Assembly (NCBI RefSeq): GCF_026151205.1
Contig: NC_087076.1
Location: 2,503,902 to 2,567,901 of the forward strand
Length of the DNA stretch: 64,000 bases
Source: Bolinopsis microptera
Taxonomy: Eukaryota; Ctenophora; Tentaculata; Lobata; Bolinopsidae
Direction: 5' to 3'
The translations under genes were made by a program, and so were the position numbers. Of this stretch, positions 10,945 through 63,713 are shown in pieces. How positions within the stretch are numbered: position 1 is the stretch's first letter; each line of letters begins with the position of its first letter. The notes beneath the pieces are model-generated. The model made no database searches, had not been told where the DNA came from, and saw only the letters and a program-made list of their open reading frames with translations.

Positions 10945-11025
10945 GGGGGGGGGGGGCAACGTAGAATTCTACTCTACTTTATTCTACTTTATTCTACTTT
11001 ATTCTACGTTCCCCCCCCCCCCCCC
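10945..11025. mobile_element. 81-bp element with poly-G / poly-C terminal inverted repeats
   Basis: Twelve G at 10945-10956 and fifteen C at 11011-11025 flank an inner inverted repeat (ACGTAGAAT / ATTCTACGT) and a triplicated 'attctacttt' core. The outside flanks carry the direct repeat TATGAGA at 10938-10944 and 11026-11032, which looks like a target-site duplication. The same plan, on a larger scale, is seen at 26252-27021. Confidence 0.7.
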
Positions 11026-12030: not shown

Positions 12031-12256
12031 CGTATAATTAGTGATGTGATCCATGGATTGAATTTAATTGACATAGAAATGGGCTAGATCTGGGGTAGAG
12101 TTCACATGTCAATTCTATAAATCATAGCTGTACATTAAGAAGTCAACATGATCTGACTTCTCGACTCGTAGATCACATAAAGGACGGGAGCTCTTGCTAA
12201 AGGGGGGGGGGGGGGGGGGGGGGGTTCAATCCATGGATCACATCACTAATTATACG
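12031..12256. repeat. Perfect 32-bp inverted repeat enclosing a 23-G tract
   Basis: The arm 12031-12062 (starting CGTATAATTAGTGATGTGAT) is repeated inverted at 12225-12256. The right arm directly follows 23 G at 12202-12224. It may be another poly-G-ended element or a nested insertion. Confidence 0.75.
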
Positions 12257-16124: not shown

Positions 16125-19100
16125 CAGTGGCGTAACGACCGCCCCTGCTAACCCTGCTAGCAGGGGGGCGGCACCTTAGGGGGGCGGCATTTTTCCGCCC
16201 CATTACACAATTTTGCCGCCCCCTGTAGCCGGTGATGACCCGTGACTCTTCATACCGAAGTAAAAAAAGTAAAGAAATTAGTTGAACGTGTCTACTACTC
16301 CAAAATTCTACACGAATTTATAGCGCAACTTAACCACGCGCTGAAAGTTGCGCAAAAAGTGATAACGATACTACACTTTCATTGTTTAAACTTTAGCGCG
16401 GAGGCCAATTTCTAATGATGCGCGGTGTGACTAAAGTTTATACGACGGTAATTGTGTGAACTCTAACCTTCGAGGTTTGCAGTTTGTGACTTTTCAATAA
16501 TTTTAAATCCGGCTCCTTAAAACCTGGGCTCTGGCCATGTTAGTTATCGTAGTAGGACAAATAGAAACAACCGTTTCGAGATACACTTATAAATTATGTT
16601 AAGTAAAATAAACATCATGATCACAGATCAAGTCAACCCAATTACAACAATTTACAAAATACAAAAAAATAAATAAATGTTCAGTGGAAACGCTTGATGC
16701 GCCCTGCTTTTGCACTGGCAAATTTTTGTACCAGCTTCGAGCGATCAAGTTTGTCAACCTCACTGTTCTCAATTGAGATGAGAGCTAAATCCTTAAGTCT
16801 AGATTGTGACATAGTCGACCTTAGATAAGTTTTTATCAACTTTAACTTCGAGAAGGACCGTTCCGCCGATGCAACAGTGACTGGTATAGCTATGAAAAGC
16901 ATCAAGGCTGCTACCAACTGCGGACACAACAGCGGAAGGTCTCTCTCGAAGATAAAGTTGATCAACTGGAGAGGACTTGTCACATCTTCGGTCCTTAGCT
17001 CACTCCCGTAATCTTCCTTCAGGTCAATTAACTCGTCTGCCAATGATGGCTGCAAGTCCTTGTGGTAGATCTTTACCAACTCATTCGCAGCAGTTCGGAG
17101 GTCCGTGCAACTCTTCGTCAGTATGTGTTTGGGCTGCAAACACGCGAACTTGCTCACTATTGAGTTGTGTCCCTCAAATCGAAGAAGGATTTGTTCCCGA
17201 CATGTCTTCAGTGTGGGAAGAAATATCTGTACCTTGAACAAATCCTTCTTCGATGGTTCTGGTAAGTTCTGGCCACGAAGTTGACCAGAATATCTGTAGA
17301 GGTTCCGGGCCATGGTGAGCTGGAATGACTGCTCGGCCCCAGCATAGATGGCTTGCTGCTGAGCTTCTACGATGAGAGTATCCCAATTTCCCTCTAGATT
17401 TCGGAGAAATCTTGTAAAGCTGCTGAGAGCAGCTGGCACAACTCCAATGTCCAGGTTTTTAGCCTGGAGCATGTTAGTAATAGTCTGTGCCTTGGAGAGC
17501 AGCTTCTCCCAAAACACCAGAGTAATGGTGAACTCGAAAGTTCTAACTCTACTCAAAAGTCCCGCAGATGTTCGGCAGTTGGTGAGTGATAGCTTCGTCA
17601 GAAGTCTGATGATATCTGGCTGCCGATTCTTGATGGCCCTAACGCTTTCATGACGAGACGACCACCTCGTTGGGCAAAGTTTTTTTAGGTCTAAGCCCGG
17701 AGAGTTCATCTTCAGCTCCTCCCAGCGTAATGAGCTCGATCCAACAAACGTAAAAACCTGGCCCAGACAGTCGAAGAAATCACTGGTGTGGTTGGTAGCA
17801 GCCACAACATCTTTTATCACCAAACACAGATTGTGGGTCGAACAGTGCACGAAGGGAACAGGGTTCGTGGTTCTGTTCTTCAGTATCGTCTGTACTCCCC
17901 CATAAACTCCCGACATAACACTGGCTCCGTCAAATCCCTGTCCTCTAAGTTTGTCCAGCGTGATTCCCAGCTTCTGGAGTTCTTCAATAGCGAGATTAGC
18001 AATAGCCTCTGCTTTTCCAGATGACATTGCGATGAATCCGAGGAAGGTCTCATGCACCTGTACTTGAGAGTCTCGAACGGAAACCCAGCGCACCACCAAA
18101 CTTAATTGGTCTACCTGTGAGGGAAATATGTCAATAAAATAGCTTCTAGATTCTAATACACATCCGATGGAAGAAATAAATGTACAACATAGTGAAAAGG
18201 GAAGGTGTAACGGTATTTTTCTTTACCATTGTCCACTGTACAGACATAATCATATTACATAAACAAATTTGAAATCAAAATGTATTTGACCAAAAGATGG
18301 AACGAACCTTTCCCAGATCAACTGTCGAATCAAGGATAATCGAAAAGTAGGGGCTCTTTAGGATATCCGATACCAAGGAGATCCGCATTTCCTCGGCGAT
18401 AAGGGAGATCAGCTCGTTTTGGATCGCAGGGCTCAGATATTTGGTCTTCCCCTTGGGCGTGGCGATCACTTGCTTCAGGAGACCGTCAAACTGGGCAAGC
18501 AGTTTGACCAACTCTAGGAAGTTGGATCCCTCACAAACTCCATCCCCCACAACCTCTCTGTGTCCACGTAATCCAATGTTCATAGAGGCAGCAGCTATTA
18601 TGATGGCAATTACCCGCTCGACGACCAGAGTCCACTTTTTTTCGTTCTCCTCGATGATCTTCAGCTCTTGAAGATCGACTGGGCTTTTGATGAAGTGCAG
18701 TCGATTTTTATGCGCCTCTGCGTGGCTCTCGGACGTCTCATGTGTCTTCATCTTCTTGGAGATGCCATACTTCTTACTGGGAAGAATCTTGTCTGCCCAC
18801 GGTGATTTGGCTTTATCCCCGAACAGCCAGCATGTCTCGCAGTAGGCATATTTGCCTAGTGGAGAATAGCAGAGCCATTTTCTTCGCAGTTCGAGTCCAT
18901 TCTGTTGCTTACTAACATAGTAGTTCGACAACGTTGAGGGTTGACAAGGTCCGTGTTGCAGTATCGCCCGCTTGTCAGCGATGCTGAGACATTGTCTGTC
19001 TTTGAACAGCTCCTTGTCGCTCGGCCAGTTCACCTCCAGTGATAGAGCAGCTGCAGCTTCCACTACAGCATCGACTTCGTTGCTTCCTTCACCTGGCGCA

Positions 19101-21527
19101 GATTTCATGATCAACTGTAAAAAGCAAGCCAAAAATGAAGATGTTTCTGTGAAAAGAAATTTAAGGATGTGGCAGTCAATCTATGATGTAATATCTAAGA
19201 TCACACCATTCACGACGAGATAATAGACTGATTATCGTATCATACTCCGTATTACTATTTGTTAGTAATTAGTTATGAGTTATGATAACAAGTCAATTAT
19301 ATGTACTTTCTTGCACTAACAGGAGTTTTAGAGAATCATGTCACTATTTCAGTAAATTAGTAAAGACTTATTATTTTGGGGTTCCTCCAGTAATTTTCTT
19401 ACCTGTTTCGTCGTCCGATTCAAATTGGAGAAACTCCAACTCTTCATCTGGTTCCTCGACTGGATCGGGACGGCTCTCCTCCCGCCAATACACGTCTTGT
19501 GCTGCTACTCGGGCTTCTGCGGCAGTAGGGAACGCTGGTCCTGCAGTTGCAGTGAAGCTTGTTATCTTGGGATAGGACTTCATAAACTCATCCTTCTTCT
19601 TCTTCTTGTTTCTGTACGCTGCCCCAGATTCTTTAGTACGCTTCATGTTAACTGTTGTGAAAAAATAATCAATCAAGAGGTCGGTCGTCGTCAATTACAA
19701 ATTGCAATGCGATTGATTGTCGAATTAGATATATTGTATACATGATGATGAGTAGTGAGCAGCCTGCAACTTATTATCATGTTAATAATAATAATAATAA
19801 TAACAAATTATTATATAACCAAGAATGGTACTAGCTACTAATGTCAGAGCGGCTCTCCTAACAAAGAGAAAACTATAATATTTTATAATAATAGTATTGC
19901 TAATTTTCAAACCTAAAAAAAGTGGCTCTCGGGCGGTAGGACAATGGACATATCTCATGAGTGATGAGTGACGGAATGTTGGCTATCGCGGAAAATCACA
20001 GACTATAACAAAAATGTACGCATATGACACATGTAGATTAAATTGGTGGACAACAGTCATGCAACATGCTTTAAAAATCTATGTCAAGTGATGAGTCAAC
20101 TACATTAAAGGCTAAAGCTAACTTTAACACATGCTTCAGTAGGGGTACTGGGTAGGATATTGCACATCAGTACAGGAATAAACGTTATAACTAATATTAA
20201 CTTACGAAGTTCACGTTGTAAGACGAAAGTCGGGTGGCCCAAGTGGGTACGTGACCAAGAATACAGTAGCGCTTGCAGTCCTTCCAGTTTCCCATTTGAC
20301 CGGACGGCGGACTCTGAAAATATCCATGCGACAGTAATGCAAATCAGCCCTCAGGGATTAAATCCTAAGGGCTAAGACCTAACTTATCAACAAACGTCAT
20401 ACAAAAACATCATTAATACTGTGACTCGTGAACCGGCCAGCGCAAAGCTGAAAGGCGAAAGCACCGCTGACCTTAGGCAATTCCGATCAATGATCAATGA
20501 TCAATCAACAAAATCGAACGTCGACGGTCGAGTTCACAATATTGCAATTCATTACTAAAAACTAGTCATAGCAGTTAGTCGTGGCAATCTGCACACTGCA
20601 GGTTAACAATGGAGTCAATTGAATTGATTATTGATCTATAAGATTAACAACCGTTTAGTGTTTACACTTTACTATACCGTTAATAATACGAGATCTGAAT
20701 GAGCTGTTGAAATACTTAATATAGAATTGATCAACAATTTACTTAAATTAAAACTTAAGATTCAAGATTAAGATTGATAACTTTTAAGTGATAGCAGATA
20801 ACGATAAATGATAACTGTTTACTGTCAACTGATAGCTCATAGGCATGGAACTTATCAGATAACGGCTTAGTTTCTGCACTCAGCAGTCAGCAGTGAGCAG
20901 TCAGAACTCAGATTTCAGAAGTCACAAGTGACAACAAGTCTACAGTTTACACAATTACAATCATCAATCAATTATCAACAATCAACAATCAACAATCAAC
21001 AATGTACACGTATGACGTAGACGCCACTCGCCAGACGGTAGACGCAAGACGTAGTAGACTGTAGAGTACATTCTAGGGCACACGCCATACGGTAAAACCA
21101 AGATAACAAACGATTAGCATTCTGATAACTACACGTGCGTCGTGTATCGGTGTCTCGCATTGATATCATCGACTGACATGCAATTTCCTCCAATCACAAG
21201 GCAAGCAGCAGACCACGTGAATAAATTTTATCCAACGCGAACGCGCACAAAATGAATAGAGGTCGATATAATGGTATATTTTTGCTGCCTATGCGCGGCT
21301 CGATTTTAATATTTCGTGGGTTTAACACGCGCGCGTCTTGGTCAAAATTTAATTTGCTTTGTTTTCTTAGACGTCGTGTTGGTAAACATTACTGATTACA
21401 CAGTATACCCACTACACTGTAACTTCACGCGACGGACAAATCTCGGCGAGCGAAGCGAGCCGGCTCCGGATAGGGGCGGCAAATTTCAATTAGCAGGGGG
21501 GCGGCACAAAGTAACGTTACGCCACTG
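16125..21527 (-). mobile_element. Complete hAT transposon with perfect 8-bp target duplication
   Basis: The terminal inverted repeat CAGTGGCGTAACG (16125-16137) is matched by CGTTACGCCACTG (21515-21527). Both sides carry the direct repeat AATGAGTA (16117-16124 and 21528-21535), the 8-bp duplication expected for hAT. Subterminal 'ggggcggca' words recur at both ends. A spliced transposase gene on the minus strand fills 16681-19646. The 19.7-21.5 kb part is non-coding leader with microsatellite-like stretches. Matching ends, an exact duplication and uninterrupted coding exons point to a young copy. Confidence 0.93.
16681..19646 (-). CDS. hAT family transposase (ZMYM1-like, TTF zinc finger, DUF4371, C-terminal dimerisation)
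   Basis: Three exons join in frame: 19646-19403, 19092-18308 and 18114-16681, giving 820 aa. Exon 1 starts MKRTKESGAAYRNKKKKK, the usual start of this hAT group. Exon 2 holds the TTF-type zinc finger (RKWLCYSPLGKYAYCETCWLFG, with later His residues) and the beginning of the catalytic domain (YFSIILDST, first Asp). Exon 3 continues with VDQLSLVVRWV, GQGFDGASVMSG and FVHCSTHNLCLVI, and ends with the hAT dimerisation motif PVTVASAERSFSKLKLIKTYLR. Intron phases are 1 and 0. The second donor reads GTTCGT, a weak site. No stop or frameshift interrupts the exons. The protein is expected to bind the element ends and cut DNA in the nucleus. Confidence 0.9.
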
Positions 21528-25541: not shown

Positions 25542-27333
25542 ATGACAAGGAATGACGTAATACACGAAAAAACAGTTGCTGCAGTGGACTCACCAGACCA
25601 TATTAATTGTGAAAGATGGAAGCTAGAGGCTGTCAGAAATAACAAGATTGTTAAAAACATTATATCAAAAATCGATAAAACGAAGAATTTCAAATTCGAA
25701 AATTCGTGTATTTCTTGTGAATTCTGTCCCAATTCAGGTTTGTTATAATCATAATTATCGAGAGCCTTACAAAGCAGCCCTGGAATAGTTTATAAATGAA
25801 AACATTTGTAAAAATAAAACGATATTTAATTTTCAGCTTACTGAGTTACGTTTACAAATCCATAATTATTAATTTTACAAGGTATTATTATTAGGTTTAA
25901 AAGGTGGTCTAACAAGTGATCCTGAGATATTACTGTGCGAGAATAGTCTCAAATCTGCCTCTGACGTTGAGACCGTTCTTAGTCATGAGCTGGTCCATTT
26001 TCTTGATCATCTTAATGTAAGTCAAAACTATATTTCAAGAAATGTACGTTTGATAGCATTTATAATTTCGTCCGGGCCAAAAATCGTAATTCTTTTTCAC
26101 TCAGCCTTAATCGACTTGTAACTTGGTAAGCTATTGTCCAATCAAATAATCCTCTGGAGAAGTTCTCGTAAAAATTAATAAGAAGGTTCAGTAAAACAAT
26201 TTACCCAATAGCTTAAAAGTAACTAAAAAATCGGTATTAGAGTGACAGACTGGGGGGGGGGGGGGGGGGGGGTAATGACTACTTTTGGGGACTTGGGGAA
26301 TTACGTCAACGATTTTACCCCGAGTCCCCATGATTTTTAGTCCCCATTAGTCCCCAAAAGTCTCCATTAGTCCCCATTTAGATGATTTTTAGTCCCCATT
26401 AGTCCCCAAAAGTCTCCATTAGTCCCCATTTAGATTTATCCTACTCTTATCTTGGACAAAACATCTCGATCGTATCGTTATTAAACTAACTTGAAAACCA
26501 TAAATAACTGTCAAAAATTCTGGGGACTTATGGGGACAAATGGTGAATTACGTCAACGAGTTGACCTCTAGTCCCCACGATTTTTAGTCCCCATTAGTCC
26601 CCAAAAGTCTCCATTGGTAGTCATTACCCCCCCCCCCCCCCCCCCCCCCGGGGGGGTTAATGACTACTTTTGGGGACTTGGGGAATTACGTCAACGATTT
26701 TACCCCGAGTCCCCATGATTTTTAGTCCCCATTAGTCCCCAAAAGTCTCCATTAGTCCCCATTTAGATAATTTTTAGTCCCCATTAGTCCCCAAAAGTCT
26801 CCATTAGTCCCCATTTAGATTTATCCTACTCTTATCTTGGACAAAACATCTCGATCGTATCGTTATTAAACTAACTTGAAAACCATAAATAACTGTCAAA
26901 AATTCTGGGGACTTATGGGGACAAATGGTGAATTAAGTCAACGAGTTGACCTCTAGTCCCCACGATTTTTAGTCCCCATTAGTCCCCAAAAGTCTCCATT
27001 GGTAGTCATTACCCCCCCCCCGACAGACTTAACCAAAATTGAAAAACCATTTTTTTTTCTTTTCAGAATACAGATTGGACAGATATCAAGGCCCTGGCAC
27101 GTTCAGAGATCCGTGCTGCTAAATACAGTCTAGAATGTCACAACCAATATGGTGCTCAACTTTGGGAGGGAAATCAAGAACATCCCCAGCTGTGCAGTAT
27201 ATCACAGAGATTTAAGCAATGTGTAAGAGACAGAGCCACTGACTCAGTCAGACTTGTCACCAATGTTGGGTCCTTTAAAGCTCGATCTATTGTTGATGAA
27301 GTTTTTGAGAAATCATACAGTGAGGAATTGTGA
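25542..27333 (+). CDS. ATP23: ATP23 mitochondrial inner-membrane protease homologue
   Basis: Exons 25542-25737, 25895-26016 and 27067-27333 join in frame (phases 1 and 0) to 194 aa. The protein shows the cysteine-rich N-terminal part (CISCEFC), the zinc-metalloprotease motif HELVH (about 96-100) followed by FLDH, then EIRAA and QCVRDRATDSVRLV, which are diagnostic for ATP23 (also called XRCC6BP1/KUB3). The family processes the mitochondrial ATP synthase subunit 6 and aids its assembly in yeast. The protein stops right after VDEVFEKSYSEEL and lacks the basic, aromatic tail found in vertebrate members. The first donor reads GTTTGT. Intron 2 hosts a poly-G-ended mobile element (26252-27021). Confidence 0.92.
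26252..27021. mobile_element. Tandem pair of elements with poly-G / poly-C terminal inverted repeats, one 8-bp target duplication
   Basis: The left unit is 26252-26649 (21 G at the start, 23 C at the end). The right unit is 26650-27021 (7 G at the start, 10 C at the end). Each begins with poly-G plus TAATGACTAC and ends with GTAGTCATTA plus poly-C, so the homopolymer is part of the inverted terminus. Bodies are nearly identical and rich in 'tccccattagtccccaaaag' repeats. The pair is flanked by GACAGACT at 26244-26251 and 27022-27029, a perfect 8-bp duplication, so it seems to have inserted, or duplicated, as a unit. No ORF is present. Confidence 0.88.
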
Positions 27334-59958: not shown

Positions 59959-60143
59959 ATGTCTTCCTCAAATCCTAATGACAAGAAACCATTCACATCT
60001 TCTTCAAGGTACGGACTTCGACATCACATCAGACCAGAAAAACCCTTATCAATTAAAACTCAAGTCAGATCAGAAAATCCTTTGTCAATTAAACGTCAAG
60101 TCAGATTAGAAAAACCCTTGTCAAATAAATCTCAATCCCAATA
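59959..60143 (+). pseudogene. N-terminal part of an ORF split by the foldback element
   Basis: An ATG at 59959 begins a basic, Ser-rich sequence with a repeated PLSIKxQVRxEKPLS unit (three copies). It runs in frame into the foldback element at 60144 and stops inside it. The partner fragment with a PHD finger continues on the far side of the element at 63328. Confidence 0.5.
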
Positions 60144-63100
60144 CTCTAGTAGCAGGGAGGGATTGAGTGTGCACTTCGATGTACAGAGTTTTTTGATACT
60201 GAATCAGGTTAATTAGGTCATTGGTAACTCAAATCACCGAGGGGCACATTTTGTGTCGCTAGTCCCAACCCTGTGGGGGCCACGCCCATATTTCACATTA
60301 GGCGCACATATGGGAAATATGTATCTCAGCTTCTGAAGGTCTTAGAGACTCAAACTTTGGCTTAAAATGACCGCAATGCACATATTTATATTGACACTAT
60401 GAAGGGTATAAAGGCCCAAAATGCTTACTTTTGGAAAAAATCCAGAAAAACCGATTTTCACTGGGGCGAGAGTGAAAAAATCTACTCTAGAAGCTTATTG
60501 ACATCGAGTATGCAGTTTGGTGTCTACAACTTTTCTAGAAACCAGGTCTTTTGTAAGGTAATTCTGGATCAGAATTGATAAGGTACGCAATTTCTATCAG
60601 TAATCCCAACCCTAGGGGGAAATTTCTAAATTACCCTCAGGCGCAAATATATGACTTTTGTATCTCGGCTTCTGAACGTTGTAGGGGCCTCTCTTTTACC
60701 TCAAACTAACTGCAAAGGCCACATTTATTTACAAGCTATAAAGCAACATAGGGTTTATAGTGCTTAGTTTTGGAGATATTCATTAAAAACTGTTTTAACT
60801 TTCGTGCATCCTAAATTAGTAACACATGTACTTAATTTTGGTATCCCGGGCTAAAAAAGTCTTACAGATACTTCACTTGCAGCACAGCAAAATGTTCAGC
60901 ATGAAAACATTCAGATAATATTTATGGAGCAACACAATTCAGTTTCAGAAGCTCCTTCCAGCTATCTTATCTTATCCACAAATGTATACATCTAACCATC
61001 TCTCTGGTTACTTCAAACCACTTCAATCCCCAAATTTATACATGAAAATCTAACTATCTCGTTATATCTACCACAAGTTGGGCTCTCTCCTGTACTGTTT
61101 GGCTGTTATGGCTAATCACCTCCAATCTAACCTCATGTTGTAGAATCTCCTTCTAGCTACCTATAATTCTGCTACTTCCATGTCATGCCTATTCTACACA
61201 GCTACCACCAGCACGTTATAATTCTAGCTCTTTCTAGCAACCTCTGAATGCTACCTCCTGCTCTATACAGGTACCACCAGTGGGCAGAAACCACCAACTC
61301 CAGCTCTTTTCACTTACTTTGGCTACATCTATTTAGCTGCTACTGCAAGGCCCCCTGGCCCCTCCAACCTCTGCTCTTTCTAGCAAACTTAACTTAAGCT
61401 ACCTCTTGCCTTTTATAACACCACCAGCAACAATTTATTCTGGCTCTTTCAGGCTGCCTCAGCTGCATTCAACAATTTCCAGTTAATTGAGGAAGAGGAA
61501 ACCTGCTATTTCTAGCAACCTCTGAATGCTACTTCCTGCTCTATCTAGCTTCCACCAACACCCACTAATTGTTGTTACTTGTTAAGCTACCACTAGCACC
61601 TGCAAATTATAGCCCTATCCAGCAAACTCAGACTACATTATGCTATATCCAGATAGCACAAGCACCCTAAAGTTCTAGCTGGAGCCTGGAGGTAGCCTGA
61701 ATTAGGTAAAACAGATAGAATTTGAGAGTGCTCATTTAGCTGAATAAGGATGGATGTAGCCCGAAGTAACTAGAAGAAGCTAAAATTTGTGGGTACCGTT
61801 TGCTAGTGTTAGCTGGATAGAGCAGAAAGTAGTCTGAGGTTGCTGGATAGTGCTAGAATTTGCAGGTGCTGGTGATAGCTGTTTGTTTGTTTGTTTGGGG
61901 ACCGGTTTTTGGTACAGCGGCCAATGAGCTGCAGCTGAACAGAGTAGGAGTAAGTCTGAGGTGCTGGATAGGGCTAGAATTTGCAGTGCTAGTTGTAGCA
62001 TAACAACAATTATTGGGTGTTGGTGGAAGCTAGATATAGCAGGAAGTAGCATTCAGAGATTGCTAGAAAGAGCTAGAATGGAGGTAGCAGAATTGAAGGA
62101 AACTAGAAGTAGATTCTACTACATGAGGTTGGATTGGAGGTAATTAGCCATAATAGCCAAACAGTACTGAAGAGAGCCCAACTTGTGGTAAGACCGGGAT
62201 CCCGGCTTAATCCCGGTCCCGGTCTTAATCCCGGTCCCAGCACTTTTTCCCAGTCCCGGTCAAAAAAGCAGTCTCGGTCGATCCTTGGCTTTAACGAGAT
62301 GGAAGCAACCAGAGGGATGGTTAGATGTATAAATTTGGGGATTGAAGTGGTTTGAAGTAACCAGAGAGATGGTTAGATGTATAAATTTGGGGATTGAAGT
62401 GGTTTGAAGTAACCAGAGAGATGGTTAGATGTATAAATTTGGGGTTGAAGTGGTTTGAAGTAACAAGAGAGATGGTTAGATGTATACATTTGTGGATAAG
62501 ATAAGATAGCTGGAAGGAGCTTCTGAAACTGAATTGTGTTGCTCCATAAATATTATCTGAATGTGTTCATGCTGAACATTTTGCTGTGCTGCAAGTGAAG
62601 TATCTGTAAGACTTTTTTAGCCCGGGATACCAAAATTAAGTACATGTGTTACTAACTTAGGATGCACGAAAGTTAAAACAGTTTTTAATGAATATCTCCA
62701 AAACTAAGCACTATAAACCCTATGTTGCTTTATAGCTTGTAAATAAATGTGGCCTTTGCAGTTAGTTTGAGGTAAAAGAGAGGCCCCTACAACGTTCAGA
62801 AGCCGAGATACAAAAGTCATATATTTGCGCCTGAGGGTAATTTAGAAATGTCCCCCTAGGGTTGGGATTACTGATAGAAATTGCGTACCTTATCAATTCT
62901 GATCCAGAATGACCTTACAAAAGACCTGGTTTCTAGAAAAGTTGTAGACACCAAACTGCATACTCGATGTCAATAAGCTTCTAGAGTAGATTTTTTCACT
63001 CTCGCCCCAGTGAAAATCGGTTTTTCTGGATTTTTTCCAAAAGTAAGCATTTTGGGCCTTTATACCCTTCATAGTGTCAATATAAATATGTGCATTGCGG

Positions 63101-63327
63101 TCATTTTAAGCCAAAGTTTGAGTCTCTAAGACCTTCAGAAGCTGAGATACATATTTCCCATACATGCGCCTAATGTGAAATATGGGCGTGGCCCCCACAG
63201 GGTTGGGACTAGCGACACAAAATGTGCCCCTTGGTGATTTGAGTTACCAATGACCTAATTAACCCGATTCAGTATCAAAAAACTCTGTACATCGAAGTGC
63301 ACACTCAATCCCTCCCTGCTACTAGAG
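60144..63327. mobile_element. 3.2-kb foldback element flanked by TA
   Basis: The two ends are inverted copies from CTCTAGTAGCAGGGAGGGAT (60144) to its complement ending at 63327. Both sides are flanked by TA (60142-60143 and 63328-63329). The arms match for at least 0.9 kb each, with only small differences. The match continues in weaker form through a centre (about 61200-62060) made of degenerate 'tagct/agcta' short repeats. No transposase ORF is visible. The TA duplication would fit a Tc1/mariner-type insertion, but TA is too short and palindromic to prove it. Confidence 0.8.
62300..62500. repeat. ~57-bp tandem repeat in the right arm of the foldback
   Basis: About three and a half units containing GAGATGGTTAGATGTATAAA and 'tttggggattgaagtggtttgaagtaac'. 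The left arm holds only about one and a half units (60985-61050), so the arms differ in copy number. Just upstream, 62193-62280 is a cluster of GGTCCCGG/CCCGGTC words. Confidence 0.8.
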
Positions 63328-63713
63328 TACAAGTAGTAGACTCAGTTAAAGTAGTAGAAACATATCATTCTGTTGAAGTAGGAACTTCTAACAATCATAG
63401 CCCAGTTGAGGCTCCAATCAGAAATGGAAGCAACCCTGATGCCCCTTCTGTTGTGTATCCATGTGGTAAATGCTCTCATGATGTCACCGGCTTCGAATGC
63501 GTTAAGTGTGATGGTCCCTGTGAAAAATGGTATCATACTAAGTGTTGTATGCACAAAAAAACTTTTGAAAAACTTGGGCAACACTCAGAAGTAATGTGGG
63601 TATGTAAGAATTGTAAGGCCCTAGAGAAGAAACCGGCTAAGCTAGTTAAAGTAGTTAAATGGGGTAATTATGCTTCTTTAAGTGAGATATCCAATGCTGC
63701 TGATTTAGCCTAG
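63328..63713 (+). pseudogene. PHD-finger fragment, C-terminal part of the split ORF
   Basis: The frame continues from the foldback end and stops at 63711-63713. It contains a PHD-type zinc finger: CGKC, CVKCDGPCEKWYHTKCC and WVCKNC. PHD fingers of this form occur in ORF1 proteins of some invertebrate retroelements and in transposon-derived genes. The protein ends soon after the finger. Whether the two halves ever formed one protein is not shown; the simple junction after removing the insertion is not in frame. Confidence 0.6.

Follow-up and report, generated by a model that had tools for sequence, protein, structure and literature searches.

A dispersed family of miniature transposable elements with poly-G/poly-C ends in the ctenophore Bolinopsis microptera

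Two tandem elements in an intron of a peptidase gene

The window analysed here is a stretch of 64,000 nucleotides of the Bolinopsis microptera genome (NC_087076.1, forward strand, positions 2,503,902 to 2,567,901), and all coordinates without a contig or locus label refer to it. On its plus strand, an exon piece at 25882..26016 (Pfam Peptidase_M76, E 7.3e-08; ends set by eye) and an exon at 27067..27330 (Peptidase_M76, E 1e-12) flank an intron of 1,050 bp at 26017..27066 (gt...ag, ends likewise set by eye). Because both exons flanking the intron match Peptidase_M76, which we take to be the family of ATP23, it is reasonable to label the predicted host gene as an M76 peptidase, ATP23-like.

The intron holds, at 26252-27021, two tandem units of 354 and 355 bp that are 99.4% identical, each with poly-G plus TAATGACTAC on the left and the complement plus poly-C on the right. 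Read along the plus strand, the left copy of an 8-bp target duplication, GACAGACT (26244..26251), is followed by the terminal G run of unit 1 (21 nt by run-length count, 26252..26272), its body of 354 bp (26273..26626), which has inverted TAATGACTAC at both ends, inner GGGGACT/AGTCCCC repeats and dispersed copies elsewhere, and its terminal C run (23 nt by the same count, 26627..26649). Adjoining this C run are the terminal G run of unit 2 (7 nt, 26650..26656), its body of 355 bp, which begins TTAATGACTAC and was delimited by sequence and alignment (26657..27011), its terminal C run (10 nt, again counted, 27012..27021) and the right 8-bp copy of GACAGACT (27022..27029). Direct reading of the sequence thus bears out an earlier note on this DNA, which had described two tandem units with poly-G/poly-C ends in an ATP23 intron and one perfect 8-bp duplication around the pair as a whole.

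Compared with unit 1, unit 2 has an additional T and carries two substitutions. Both substitutions are absent from every other copy in an alignment of 34, and they do not decide between two about equally probable origins of the pair: insertion of a second copy into the poly-C of the first, or a single movement of an end-to-end dimer. For the insertion, it is proposed that the duplication belonging to unit 2 is CCCCCCCC and hence invisible; the right run of unit 2 should then consist of its own C's plus 8, and the observed C10 fits this poorly unless the run has contracted. The moved dimer avoids the C10 problem, but the abutted poly-C/poly-G junction occurs only in the window pair among the 105 loci collected.

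A dispersed and recently active family

The window units belong to a dispersed family of miniature inverted-repeat transposable elements (MITEs): its members are short, present in many copies, bounded by inverted ends and a target duplication, and without coding capacity. The genome searched comprises 264.65 Mb in 232 contigs, with 97.5% of the sequence in contigs 1-13. In the genome-wide search for poly-G ends that the earlier note had called for, G7TAATGACTAC was found 57 times (32 forward, 25 reverse) and its reversed control not at all, and G8HN{0,3}AATGACTAC was found 267 times, with places given for 100 of these, against 0 for its control. A DNA search with the 354-bp body returned at least 43 matches (40 of 220 candidates scored), from which a body-selected set of 30 loci, including both window units, was drawn; 57 of its 60 ends bear an uninterrupted stretch of 6 or more G's or C's. 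Twelve further unpaired ends were inspected, 11 of which match the family, while the remaining one (L108) is a minimal copy with a core of only 17 bp. The family is young and recently active.

Copies vary widely in size. A longer form measures 860 bp (L062) and composites reach 8.5 kb (L102). At the other extreme, minimal copies retain a 24-bp core between G and C runs with an exact duplication (L041), a 14-bp core with the duplication CTCTAACC, identified by eye and counting one C into the run (L088:1582-1625), or the 17-bp core between runs mentioned above (L108:1-37); these remnants are probably internal deletions. One body strand folds better than shuffled sequences (z -3.7), which is what inverted repeats would give, and an Rfam search returned no match.

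Some copies have complex surroundings or contents. The same insertion, with the flank GATCATGG, recurs at several places (L071, L072, L075, L090, L110 and L117); this is a host repeat that has spread with the element inside it. In L079, L099, L100, L101 and L102, a family element contains a minisatellite-filled insert with poly-G/poly-C plus TGACATGTCTCC ends of its own, and each of these composites (3.4-8.5 kb) has its own 8-bp duplication, that of L102 having been identified by eye.

Target duplications, empty sites and a palindromic target

The duplications of other copies had been named in advance as a test of mobility, and they were found. When alternative boundaries are allowed for interrupted runs, 44 of 53 end pairs show an exact 8-bp duplication abutting the run (shuffled control: mean 0.9, maximum 5, 200 shuffles), and under a single boundary rule 40 of the 53 do (shuffled mean 0.76, maximum 3); the 53 pairs include L041 twice (tandem copies, one insertion) as well as L072 and L090 (one host repeat). 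An exact 8-bp duplication is missing from the other nine pairs, namely L028, L030, L077, L008, L082, L015, L034 and the two window units taken singly.

Additionally, the element and one duplication were deleted by script from 38 insertions, and the resulting joins were compared with the collected loci. Four empty targets were recovered in the same genome, none with a G run: the target of L099 is intact in L086 (99.2% over 123 bp, ungapped), that of L026 is found in its own 56-bp array (99.2% over 357 bp, ungapped), that of L049 lies in the flank of L080 (89.5% over 105 bp, with gaps away from the target), and that of L016 is present in a second copy (97.6% over 83 bp). Two diverged copies of the L016 target also lie in the window, at 60142-60222 (85.5%) and 63249-63329 (86.7%). 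Further matches were rejected as self-matches to the element's own left flank (L051, L035), as gapped (L041, L037) or as low-complexity repeats (L081). Since the empty sites carry no runs, the homopolymer belongs to the inserted DNA; together, dispersed copies, duplications and empty sites confirm that the units are mobile elements, as had been supposed.

The reconstructed targets (37, of which 36 are independent, L041 having been entered twice) display a 14-bp palindrome, WRN[RNNNNNNY]NYW. The third flanking base is W in 92% and the second is R or Y in 88%, and 30 of the 37 duplicated octamers begin with R and 29 end with Y. Such a palindromic target suits a symmetric transposase dimer.

Variation in the length of the terminal runs

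All run lengths given here are lengths in the assembly, as distinct from raw long reads. Among 136 family ends, only 5 have a run shorter than 5 and the longest run reaches 113; many of these loci were picked for poly-G, the unselected figure being the 57 of 60 ends given above. Ends on the TTTTGG side (n=69) have a median run of 21 and those on the CAATGG side (n=67) one of 17 (p=0.057). Within the run, the inner variants AGT, TGT and TGGT occur at 4, 4 and 2 of the 136 ends.

Copies that have an identical neighbour possess runs of 9-42 (one interrupted run being counted as 6), so long runs exist at or soon after insertion. Lengths vary among copies with identical bodies, show no correlation with divergence (n=34) and are uncorrelated between the two ends of a copy (rho -0.17, n=34). 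They also change after insertion, as seen directly in the single insertion shared by the duplicated hosts L071, L072, L075 and L090, where the run measures 25, 16, 24 and 13 at one end and, at the opposite end, 23, 25 and 21. Because run length shifts after insertion, the run is no constant terminal sequence, and slippage is also at work. The earlier view of the homopolymer as part of the transposon end rather than a slippage tract is therefore correct in that the run is inserted DNA, as the run-free empty sites indicate, but not in setting slippage aside.

Origin of the homopolymer ends

We tentatively favor, at a probability of about 0.45, a cut-and-paste MITE family whose G/C run travels with the element and then drifts by slippage. 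The element would be a non-autonomous transposon with terminal inverted repeats (TIRs), mobilized in trans by a transposase whose cuts, staggered by 8 bp, fall at a palindromic target. We infer that this transposase recognizes TAATGACTAC and, further in, the GGGGACT repeats, and that it cleaves on the outer side of the run, which would be carried along at every jump, its length being altered by slippage in post-integration gap repair and in replication. Transposase complexes are generally taken to need ends of fixed length and to cleave a set distance away from where they bind, and a variable stretch of 6-113 separating these two points is not easily reconciled with such a complex. Also counting against this reading is that no transposase-bearing relative was found. 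If the transposase were P-like, the 17-nt 3' overhangs that P transposase leaves (PMC7776569) would mean that the terminal bases must be resynthesized every time the element moves, which might give rise to slippage.

The variable-distance problem disappears if the cut instead falls at a fixed distance inside the run, so that copies are born with a standard number of G's (~10-13) and slippage regrows the run. In 11 copies with an identical neighbour, CAATGG-side runs indeed cluster near 12, their median being 12 and that of the opposite side 28 (Wilcoxon p=0.014, in a subset chosen after the fact), and post-insertion changes in run length are observed. Over all 136 ends, however, there is little difference between the sides (medians 21 and 17), and length does not rise with divergence (n=34). 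A fixed cut is rated as unlikely. Alternatively, the true end may be (C/T)AATGACTAC, with an activity like that of terminal transferase adding untemplated poly-C to the 3' ends between excision and each integration. Copies with identical bodies already have long runs, uncorrelated between ends, as this would predict, and rho of -0.17 fits fresh addition at each jump as well as it fits slippage. Moreover, an element with TTAA duplications (L067) also has poly-G between duplication and TIR, and because its ends are of the same type, any tailing might be carried out by the host on elements of more than one superfamily. The YAATG just inside the run further matches the P consensus YARNG (PMC2820524). 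The recurrence of the inner-run variants AGT, TGT and TGGT at several sites is, on the other hand, what inherited tracts would show, and a MULE nested in L080 lacks a long run. Pure homopolymers of 20 or more are, to our knowledge, not usual products of terminal transferase. That every jump restores a homopolymer end of no set length by untemplated addition of C, perhaps through a host function serving more than one superfamily, is a distinctly improbable reading.

The possibility that the units are a non-mobile tandem repeat whose G runs arose by slippage or assembly would find some encouragement in the abundance of long G/C runs, as 11,146 G and 11,521 C runs of at least 12 (22,667 in all) occur in the 264.65 Mb. 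In C1:0-1.67 Mb, moreover, G-then-C pairs exceed C-then-G pairs only slightly (8 v 6 within 1 kb and 18 v 12 within 4 kb; raw counts, no significance test), and since this order is only mildly favored, many of the runs there are not paired element ends. Such a repeat is nevertheless extremely improbable: runs are found at nearly all body-selected ends (57 of 60), matching 8-bp duplications bracket them, and run-free empty sites refute a lack of mobility.

What is new in the preferred reading of a cut-and-paste family is the poly-G ends, not the kind of element. In the open-licence literature, ctenophore papers included, no description of poly-G or other homopolymer transposon ends was found, although one may exist in print elsewhere. 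Ends ranging from ~6 to >100 bp that nevertheless abut exact 8-bp duplications constitute a natural test of the set-distance rule, and the family also lends itself to testing whether a terminal tract is passed on, shortened or newly made when an element moves. It further bears on the wealth of long G/C runs in this genome; in the window, where A/T runs are near chance, 8 G/C runs of at least 10 are found against 1 A/T run.

Source of the transposase and superfamily affinities

The search for longer, transposase-bearing relatives, also suggested earlier, came back empty: among the long copies and ORFs scanned, no family copy has its own transposase. The 117 loci contain 68 non-low-complexity ORFs of at least 110 aa, 56 of them distinct, and Pfam, run on 11 of these 56, revealed no transposase other than the MULE in L080. 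This locus (3.7 kb) was rejected as an autonomous copy, as the MULE transposase sits in a nested insertion with a 9-bp duplication of its own, CGGGGAAAA; in L064 and L070 the sequence runs on across the site, which L062 retains. The family itself was not found to combine the marks of Mutator/MULE membership, a transposase of the element's own and a 9-bp duplication. The nested MULE ends with only GGG, so long runs are absent from some DNA transposons of this genome.

Other long loci were likewise discarded as autonomous copies. L081 and L102 have a 3.3-kb block in common, which lies at different positions of the element and is therefore a separate element, L104 contains a reverse transcriptase, and the inserts of L060, L079, L099, L100, L101 and L102 are minisatellite-like. 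The end pair L065/L066, 16 kb apart, proved to be a giant inverted repeat with arms 99.7% identical, in which an old copy (78%) is a passenger. This repeat, located at C1:13029700-13045900, also carries a reverse transcriptase frame. End pairs of similar spacing occur on C2, C3 and C4, as judged from spacing and two partial loci. L098:198-2299 combines a poly-G end, only ~40 bp of body and, beyond these, a frame of 510 aa whose weak match to GIY-YIG falls below the Pfam cut-off.

Judged by sequence, the end without its G run, (C/T)AATGA, looks P- or hAT-like, and with the run it looks Merlin-like. P elements have a palindromic target, and members of the P superfamily (Drosophila P, zebrafish Pdre2, medaka Izanagi, Anopheles P-MITEs) resemble the family in their 8-bp duplications, short TIRs and MITE derivatives. 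The 8-bp duplication expected of P elements is present in the family. A P element would also have its TIR, with a CA-type start, directly at the duplication; in the family YAATGA occurs, but inside a G run. Izanagi starts with CAATGA and has GGAGAC further inside (PMC2820524), and subterminal transposase sites are described for P (PMC7776569); in contrast to the family, no G run outside the TIR is described for P in the available text of either source. A search for the P RNase-H domain (PF21787) gave 0 matches among 3 candidates, and the positive control was also without a match.

The hAT superfamily, too, resembles the family in its 8-bp duplications. Its consensus has an AATG-type start and its duplications follow nTnnnnAn; only 6 of 40 family duplications have both T2 and A7. 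hAT transposases are abundant in the genome (at least 150 matches among 365 candidates), and in a comparison by eye among the matches listed, none was seen inside a listed family end pair. One hAT-type transposase is located in the window, at 16681-19108 on the minus strand, in two open frames, the 448-aa one of which matches Dimer_Tnp_hAT; no clear TIR was found around it. The BED-finger protein Zbed4 binds runs of at least 5 G (PMC3365051).

Merlin elements are like the family in that their termini have a conserved GG and their duplications measure 8 or 9 bp, and they are present in three ctenophores, whereas no long G run is described for them (all from the available portion of PMC8101967). 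The family does have terminal GG at an 8-bp duplication, a weak likeness given that any G run would provide it.

Other G/C runs in the window and the genome

Three further G/C runs lie in the window at 12202 (23 nt), 33864 (22 nt) and 39345 (18 nt), with no partner recognized. The TTAA element mentioned above, at L067:1899-2832, carries G25 and C15 between its TTAA duplications and the TIR TTCGCCCTGA/TTCACCCTGA. Another poly-G element, of ~80 bp, occupies 10945-11025 of the window; it consists of G12, CAACGTAGAATTC...TTCTACGTT and C15, and has TATGAGA (7 bp) on either side, the eighth base being mismatched.
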